Of a stretch of DNA of 64,000 nt, positions 9,641-53,468 are shown one piece after another. Location: contig NZ_CP010776.1 of NCBI RefSeq assembly GCF_001577755.1, positions 1,674,001-1,738,000 of the forward strand, written 5' to 3'. Source of the DNA: Rufibacter sp. DG15C (GTDB lineage: Bacteria > Bacteroidota > Bacteroidia > Cytophagales > Hymenobacteraceae). Below the pieces are notes generated by a model. That model ran no database searches. It had not been told where the DNA came from and saw only the letters and a program-made list of their open reading frames with translations. The translations under genes were made by a program, and so were the position numbers. How positions within the stretch are numbered: the stretch's first letter is position 1; the number at the start of each line of letters is the position of its first letter.

Positions 9641-9736
9641 GTGTTGATTTTATTTTATTTCTTTTCTGGTTTACTATTCTCGCTTTATCTCCTTCTTTCT
9701 ATCCCTGCTATTCAACCTATCACCCTAACCGTTTCT

Positions 9737-9763
9737 CCTATTGTCATCCTGAAAGGATCTTGT
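9737..9763 (+). repeat. Repeat B, left arm of a perfect inverted pair
   Basis: This 27-bp sequence contains GTCATCCTGAAAGGATCTTG. Its exact reverse complement lies at 10023-10049, so the pair brackets about 260 bp. The core itself is partly palindromic (ATCCT...AGGAT). Confidence 0.9.
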
Positions 9764-9810
9764 GGGCCAGCTAAATAGGCTATGACTAAACGCTTTCCTA
9801 TTTCCTGCTT

Positions 9811-9925
9811 CAAGCTTGTAGCTTGGAGCTAACCATGCTGGCAAGTTTTCAACTTGCTTTTATAACCAGTTCCTTTCCGCAAGTTTTTAAACTTGTCTCA
9901 TGTTTACCCACAAGCTATAAGCTTG
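9811..9925. repeat. Cluster of four small CAAG/CTTG palindromes
   Basis: Four hairpin-forming palindromes follow one another: CAAGCTTGTAGCTTG (9811-9825), GCAAGTTTTCAACTTGC (9841-9857), CAAGTTTTTAAACTTG (9880-9895) and CAAGCTATAAGCTTG (9911-9925). They share the CAAG/CTTG ends but differ in their centres. No coding frame of note lies here. Confidence 0.8.
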
Positions 9926-9940
9926 CGAGAGGATAGTTGT

Positions 9941-9978
9941 CGTTTTTGGCCTCTTTCCCAGAAAACAGGCCAAAAACG
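9941..9978. repeat. Repeat A copy 5
   Basis: Arms CGTTTTTGGCCT and AGGCCAAAAACG with a further matching GT/AC outside. It lies inside the Repeat B inverted pair, just right of the palindrome cluster. Confidence 0.85.
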
Positions 9979-10022
9979 ACAGTAGGCTCTTTGCACTTAG
10001 CACTCGCTACTACAGCTTGCCG

Positions 10023-10049
10023 ACAAGATCCTTTCAGGATGACAATAGG
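10023..10049 (-). repeat. Repeat B, right arm of a perfect inverted pair
   Basis: Exact 27-base reverse complement of 9737-9763. It ends 36 bp from the stop of the amino-acid dehydrogenase gene. Confidence 0.9.
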
Positions 10050-10084
10050 GGGAGTATAAGTGTAGTTGATTCGTTGGGTTTTAC

Positions 10085-21704: not shown

Positions 21705-21730
21705 CCTATTGTCATCCTGAAAGGATCTTG
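21705..21730 (+). repeat. Repeat B, single copy
   Basis: Contains GTCATCCTGAAAGGATCTTG preceded by CCTATT, identical over 25 bases with the 9737 copy. No facing copy was found in the same gap. Confidence 0.85.
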
Positions 21731-47804: not shown

Positions 47805-47854
47805 AAAAGCCGTTTTTGGCCTGATTCCTGGGAATCAGGCCAAAAACGGCTTTT
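47805..47854. terminator. Repeat A copy 21 extended to a 50-bp perfect inverted repeat
   Basis: AAAAGCCGTTTTTGGCCTGA with TTCC pairs exactly with GGAATCAGGCCAAAAACGGC with TTTT; only TG (47829-47830) is unpaired. It lies between convergent dacB and NlpC genes, with T runs on both strands, and fits a bidirectional terminator. The Repeat A core is 47811-47848. Confidence 0.85.
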
Positions 47855-52998: not shown

Positions 52999-53026
52999 AA
53001 AGTTGCAGAGTACTTTCCCCGTGTCC

Positions 53027-53064
53027 CGTTTTTAGCCTGATTTCAGTAAAACAAGCCAAAAACG
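53027..53064. repeat. Repeat A copy 23
   Basis: Arms CGTTTTTAGCCTGATTTC and AAAACAAGCCAAAAACG, immediately before the next terminator. Confidence 0.8.
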
Positions 53065-53077
53065 AAATCCACTATAG

Positions 53078-53114: not shown

Positions 53115-53173
53115 TGTAATGGCAAAAAGGACCTGTTAGGTGGGAAGGAATACAGCGAGTAACGGAAACTAGC

Positions 53174-53215
<42 letters not shown>

Positions 53216-53216
<1 letters not shown>

Positions 53217-53241
53217 TTGTCATCCTGAAAGGAACTTGTGG
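53216..53241 (+). repeat. Repeat B, left copy of inverted pair
   Basis: GTCATCCTGAAAGGAACTTG, 19 of 20 bases of the core. The facing copy is 53285-53311, with 43 bp between. Confidence 0.85.
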
Positions 53242-53284
53242 GCAAGCTGTAATAGCGTTTACTCCATCGCTTAGCTAGTTTGTT

Positions 53285-53311
53285 CACAAGGTCCTTTCAG
53301 GATGACAAAAG
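53285..53311 (-). repeat. Repeat B, right copy of inverted pair
   Basis: CAAGGTCCTTTCAGGATGAC is the reverse complement of the core with one change. Confidence 0.85.
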
Positions 53312-53414: not shown

Positions 53415-53468
53415 AGAGCTTCCGTTTTTGGCCTACTTTCTCAAAAACAGGCCAAAAACGGAAGCTCT
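53415..53468. repeat. Repeat A copy 24 with extended 20-bp arms
   Basis: AGAGCTTCCGTTTTTGGCCT (53415-53434) pairs exactly with AGGCCAAAAACGGAAGCTCT (53449-53468). T runs at either end suggest bidirectional termination. The core copy is 53423-53460. Confidence 0.85.

Follow-up and report, generated by a model that had tools for sequence, protein, structure and literature searches.

A 313-bp intergenic unit of Rufibacter sp. DG15C, located at positions 9737-10049 of the window (the whole 64,000-nucleotide stretch of DNA that was analysed), is probably a non-autonomous member of a family of mobile elements that end in TGTC-tagged REPs and depend on a small GIY-YIG nuclease, by which it would have been mobilised. 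Full-length members of this family encode a GIY-YIG nuclease of ~98 aa between the same ends as those of the window unit, and the pairing of the nuclease with [C/T]GTC REPs recurs in other phyla. The association of nuclease and REPs is well supported, and from it we infer an enzymatic role for the nuclease. The best reading of these elements is that they are functionally analogous to RAYT/REPIN systems. The pairing points to a candidate for the enzyme that has so far been missing for a widespread type of bacterial repeat.

The sequence-only reading described the unit as bounded by a perfect 27-bp inverted pair and as holding four CAAG/CTTG palindromes and a copy of Repeat A but no gene, and each part of this description was borne out. 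Within the window, the ends are exact reverse complements over 27 bp, and at 94% identity the arms reach 36 nt; the only other perfect inverted pairs of at least 20 nt with a span up to ~420 bp were three ordinary short-span hairpins. The palindromes lie at 9811-9825, 9842-9856, 9880-9895, and 9911-9925. No credible gene was identified in the unit, where the longest frame lying mostly inside is 40 aa, and Rfam matches to it were all sub-threshold, with none in the REPs. The unit sits between convergent genes, close to their 3' ends, and is predicted to fold strongly. The features of the unit, and of the other Repeat B copies in the window, are as follows:

9728-9741, + strand: pyrimidine-rich tract 5' of the left tag, counted into the extended terminal repeat (from the flank composition of 29 pairs)
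9737-9763, + strand: left 27-bp perfect inverted repeat, exactly matching the right end
9742-9762, + strand: left REP, with tag TGTC, stem ATCCT-GAA-AGGAT, and tail CTTG
9763-9795, + strand: left-end arm (TGGGCCAGCTAAATAGGCTATGACTAAACGC...), resembling the arm before the nuclease start codon in full-length members
9811-9925, no strand: array of four C-palindromes (CAAGYTnnnARCTTG), a repeat module that also occurs outside B elements
9938-9981, no strand: Repeat A hairpin, from a separate multi-copy family, with similar hairpins at the syntenic sites of relatives
9998-10022, - strand: right-end arm (on the reverse strand, CGGCAAGCTGTAGTAGCGAGTGCTA)
10024-10044, - strand: right REP, inverted
10023-10049, - strand: right 27-bp perfect inverted repeat
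10045-10058, - strand: tract 5' of the right tag that is rich in pyrimidines, or in purines as read on the + strand (flank composition of 29 pairs)
21711-21730, + strand: solo Repeat B copy
53217-53308, no strand: short inward Repeat B pair of the ~88-bp class, which folds as one long hairpin

The terminal repeat, Repeat B (TGTC-ATCCT-gaa-AGGAT-CTTG), forms a family of about 70 copies in the genome that includes 29 inward-facing pairs. Its 20-nt core (GTCATCCTGAAAGGATCTTG) matched 68 sites in the 4.14-Mb genome with up to two mismatches, as compared to none for a reversed-pattern control, and five sites in the window as compared to 0.01 in shuffles. When up to four mismatches were allowed, the 74 sites in the loci examined resolved into the 29 inward pairs and 16 solo copies; outward pairs within 700 bp numbered zero. 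The pairs fall into size classes of ~88 bp, ~136 bp, 220-310 bp (to which the window unit belongs), 377 bp, and ~600 bp, with start-to-start spacings of 67-68 (nine pairs), 115-135 (12), 202-281 (four, including the window unit), 357 (two), 562, and 597. Beyond the REP, the two ends of the family are distinct, the left arm being AACTAGACAGGC..GGCTATGAAACAA and the right arm GCAAGCTGTAGTAGCGTTTACT, and the window unit has its own version of both.

Among the 29 pairs, the stretch of 10-14 nt beyond each tag is ~80% pyrimidine and nearly lacks G. Individually palindromic target sites were rejected as an explanation because left and right flanks were no more alike than in shuffled pairs (p = 0.56), and we therefore treat the pyrimidine tract as part of the ends. 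A flanking target duplication, which the sequence-only reading proposed to check for, was absent at the window unit, and no direct repeat was detected at any of the 29 pairs. Likewise, the search for the whole 313-bp unit elsewhere returned a single copy in the genome and no full-length match among 18 relatives. Since there is no second copy, our conclusion on this unit rests on its ends and on its absence in relatives.

Both 377-bp members (357 spacing) hold an intact gene for the ~98-aa GIY-YIG nuclease (PF01541, E = 8e-14; no NCBIfam model matched). The genome has five GIY-YIG matches, comprising three in open frames of 477-603 codons and two small genes, both of which lie within inward Repeat B pairs. 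The catalytic residues Y9, Y20, G22, R30, E69, and N88 are conserved in at least 96% of the nucleases compared, and dN/dS of 0.04-0.05 indicates strong purifying selection. The fold, predicted with a mean pLDDT of 94.5, is most like that of UPF0213, with Slx1 as a weaker match. Exactly 46 nt from the tag, at the position of the nuclease start, nine of the 12 elements with 115-135 spacing have ATGAAA or a variant that differs from it by one base. That the start-codon motif is kept there in the ~136-bp members indicates that these shorter members, as read from their sequences, are internal-deletion derivatives of a nuclease-bearing parent. RAYT was ruled out as the mobilising enzyme, as no RAYT/Y1 transposase (PF01797) was detected in the genome while five of 14 control genomes gave matches. 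The search for a transposase with matching ends, another proposed check, led to a gene between the same ends that encodes a GIY-YIG nuclease and no known transposase.

Two B-bounded units, at G000:C1:473977-474558 (L017) and 1125002-1125618 (L028), contain other ORFs (128 and 145 aa, neither with a Pfam family) and no nuclease. The ORFs of the 562- and 597-spacing elements match no Pfam family. The L017 unit retains the right arm of the nuclease element, which suggests cargo exchange. The short B pair in the window is directly touched by a run of AAC trinucleotides (53167-53217).

The repeats associated with these nucleases follow one plan, [C/T]GTC-AT-NNN-loop-N'N'N'-AT-CT. Of 156 distinct copies, 96 have a stem that closes, with eight triplet types in use, as compared to 24 +/- 4 with shuffled triplets, and twelve elements have unlike left and right repeats whose stems both close, indicating stem covariation. 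Stem dimensions vary, from 5 bp with a 3-nt loop in Rufibacter to 9 bp with a 5-nt loop in an alphaproteobacterial REP beside a GIY-YIG gene (L207). A Mantel comparison of protein distance with REP distance yielded r = 0.68, a correlation that arises partly through host phylogeny, and REP type required five changes on the nuclease tree versus 27.9 when shuffled. On that tree, the nucleases of Mucilaginibacter that are paired with CTGAG-type repeats fall among those of Pedobacter and not with other Mucilaginibacter nucleases. Two Rufibacter nuclease clades each have their own repeat tail within the same genomes (clades a and b; ...CCTTGTGGGC and ...ATCTCGGTGGC repeats).

A scan for relatives of the nuclease yielded 80 named loci, mostly from Bacteroidota, with a few from KSB1, Calditrichota, Deferribacteres, and Chlorobiota MAGs. 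Of these 80 loci, 57 have inverted repeats on their flanks, versus 39 of 239 shuffled pairings, and inward GTCAT/ATGAC tags were detected within 200 bp of 51 of 76 nuclease genes versus 2.2% of control segments from the same loci. In a broader sample of 40 nuclease loci from 148 Bacteroidota genomes, inverted repeats were identified at 18 of 40 loci (2.1% in controls) and inward tags at 20 of 39 (6.3% in controls); a clear inverted REP pair is absent at about half of this sample.

Relatives of the nuclease in plasmid records were affiliated with Alphaproteobacteria, Aeromonas, Planktothrix, and Spirosoma, and most are bounded by inward REPs (e.g., CGTCATCCTCGGGCTTGACCCGAGGATCCA and CGTCATCCCCGCGAAGGCGGGGATCCA). 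Inward CGTC REPs flank most of the nuclease genes in plasmid records of Rhizobium, Shinella, Sphingobium, Novosphingobium, Azospirillum, and Aeromonas. The exceptions among 14 plasmid-record loci are L213 (no repeats), L216 (another palindrome), and Planktothrix L205 (repeats further away); as three Sphingobium loci represent one insertion site, the independent count of REP-bounded loci is ~9 or 10 of 12. Empty or collapsed sites were identified at Sphingobium fnrL, at Azospirillum sufB-sufC, and at a further Sphingobium REPIN site, where the inserted block (~140 bp) exceeds the REP pair. Exact insertion junctions were sought at the empty sites in Sphingobium and Azospirillum, but divergence or a composite make-up of the flanks keeps the target from being defined.

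Two side observations concern these loci. At L219 and W07:99435-99463, REP pairs have collapsed to one palindrome that carries CGTC at each end, the outcome expected of a deletion between the inner direct repeats. In Planktothrix agardhii plasmid p1 (L205), the GIY-YIG gene and REP-like repeats lie between genes for an MmeI-type restriction enzyme and a DISARM helicase.

Repeat B is present in all 16 Rufibacter genomes, whereas the nuclease was undetected in four species that retain Repeat B and is broken in some others. The relation of repeat copy number to presence of the nuclease in Rufibacter is suggestive only (one-sided exact p = 0.025, n = 4 vs 9), and the three species in which the nuclease is broken depart from it. 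Many Rufibacter nuclease copies of one clade occupy one locus, beside acyl-CoA dehydrogenase and thiolase-like genes, and because this conserved locus accounts for most copies of that clade, the nuclease gene itself appears to move rarely. In this the Rufibacter nuclease is much like RAYT genes, which are mostly conserved and single-copy. At L119 and related Rufibacter loci, a conserved acyl-CoA dehydrogenase gene has the nuclease on one side or the other, depending on the species, and G012 has a copy on each side of it.

These distributions bear on an alternative that we consider unlikely, in which REPs spread by another route, their hairpins serve as insertion sites for a GIY-YIG gene that behaves as a homing-like parasite, and the window unit is two REPs around other intergenic repeats. 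Such a passenger would account for the small number of nuclease genes relative to REPs, for the persistence of REPs in the four Rufibacter species without the gene, and for the Sphingobium site at which a REP pair with the nuclease alternates with one collapsed palindrome. It does not sit well, however, with short elements in which the region around the nuclease start persists at an unchanged offset, with REP types that follow nuclease lineage even inside one genus, with left and right arms outside the REP that are distinct and conserved, or with a genome that encodes no other REP enzyme (RAYT).

The intergene that holds the window unit, between a small lipoprotein gene and a glutamate dehydrogenase-like gene, could be delimited in seven relatives. 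In six of these (L090-L094 and L096), both genes are in place but no B repeat lies between them, the gaps being 108-346 bp with an A-like hairpin, and the absence from related strains that the sequence-only reading proposed as a check was thereby observed. In G012 the syntenic intergene contains an 88-bp B pair, and in G001 a degenerate B pair lies beside the second (glutamate dehydrogenase-like) gene. The A-like hairpins, together with an interior made of repeats found elsewhere, would suit a reading in which the inverted pair is not one unit but two independent REP insertions flanking a resident Repeat A terminator; we regard this as improbable, given that the arms at the two ends differ, each being typical of its side in the family, and that Repeat B pairs always face inward. 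It is likewise improbable that the nuclease and REPs are instead kept for a host function such as cruciform trimming, transcription termination, or protection of mRNA 3' ends, with transposition ancient or absent, since site-by-site presence or absence among species, broken nuclease copies, and deletion derivatives are as expected of mobile DNA, although strong purifying selection, the conserved home locus, and the strongly folding position near the 3' ends of convergent genes would accord with it.

Under our preferred reading, in which the unit is a non-autonomous, nuclease-dependent REP element, the earlier suggestion of a MITE or transposon relic holds in part. Family arms in multiple copies, absence from the syntenic sites of relatives, and the presence of a gene in longer members that share these ends agree with it, while the single copy, the lack of target duplication, ends that are TGTC REPs and not IS ends, and a nuclease in place of a transposase do not. 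Like MITEs of insertion sequences, the family has short non-coding copies with terminal inverted repeats that arose by internal deletion from a longer coding element; this likeness, including multiple copies derived from a coding element, applies at the family level only, as the exact 313-bp unit is single copy. Unlike MITEs, no classical transposase lies between matching ends and no target duplication accompanies the 29 pairs.

The elements resemble RAYT/REPIN systems (GTAG REPs; PMC2817692, PMC3116915, PMC8266576) in having tagged hairpin repeats as inverted pairs and one or few enzyme genes flanked by repeats alongside many non-autonomous pairs per genome, but differ in that the Rufibacter tag is TGTC and not GTAG and the enzyme is GIY-YIG instead of a Y1/HuH tyrosine transposase (Y1_Tnp, PF01797), which the genome lacks. 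The repeats themselves correspond to the CGTC-tagged REP superfamily, with a tag of CGTC or often TGTC, a stem of 8-9 bp that opens on complementary AT residues, a loop of 4-5 nt, mostly head-to-head dimers, and Azospirillum lipoferum among its named hosts (Di Nocera et al., 2013, PMC3733652). The window unit has the TGTC tag at both ends, its stem opens with complementary AT pairs (ATCCT/AGGAT), pairs in its genome are head-to-head (29 inward, none outward), and several alphaproteobacterial repeats beside nuclease genes share the superfamily form. The differences are the shorter Rufibacter stem and loop (5 bp and 3 nt) and the GIY-YIG gene between the repeats; no dedicated enzyme or transposase was reported for the superfamily (PMC3733652). 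The nuclease shares its fold and active-site residues with UPF0213, other small GIY-YIG proteins, and Slx1, for which an association with mobile repeats was not found described in the literature searched; Slx1 also differs in its far longer chains and in working with Slx4. In open-licence papers, to which the search was confined, no link was found between GIY-YIG proteins and REPs, REPINs, RAYT, dRS3, MITEs, or palindromic repeats.

Slx1 enzymes, which are structure-specific nucleases that process branched DNA, are the nearest solved relatives of the nuclease beyond UPF0213. The nuclease may recognise the tagged hairpin, extruded as a cruciform or in single-stranded DNA, and cut near the TGTC tag. 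Such a cut would start the copying or moving of the DNA between two inward ends, the interior carried by the window copy being the C-palindrome array and the Repeat A hairpin. Host repair would finish the process, as GIY-YIG chemistry does not account for strand joining; these enzymes act by hydrolysis of DNA and are not known as strand-joining enzymes, so the nuclease alone does not explain the integration step. Also weighing against this reading are the four Rufibacter species that retain Repeat B and in which the nuclease was undetected, the rare movement of the nuclease gene, the share of the broader Bacteroidota sample with no clear inverted REP pair, the absence of target duplication, and the part of the protein-REP correlation that reflects host phylogeny.

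More broadly, we lean, on balance, toward the view that small GIY-YIG nucleases and [C/T]GTC hairpin repeats constitute a second, independent REP-mobilising class that spans several phyla, is convergent with RAYT/REPIN, and underlies many of the commonest intergenic repeats (GTCAT... families). CGTC/TGTC repeats are found across several bacterial phyla, and in 2013 no dedicated transposase was reported for them; a single-domain candidate enzyme between matched repeat types in several phyla makes the question of how they spread directly testable. If true, this would also hint at what is done by a very common gene whose usual annotation is no more than GIY-YIG nuclease family protein.

Repeat A hairpins (GTTTTTGGCC...GGCCAAAAAC) occur in the window at 9938-9981, 47805-47854, 53026-53067, and 53420-53468, and dozens of copies in the genome often occupy a terminator-like position between genes. 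At G000:C1:1614184-1614297, a CAAG/CTTG palindrome array similar to that of the window unit lies between two A hairpins with no surrounding B element, which indicates that the array and Repeat A are separate repeat modules.
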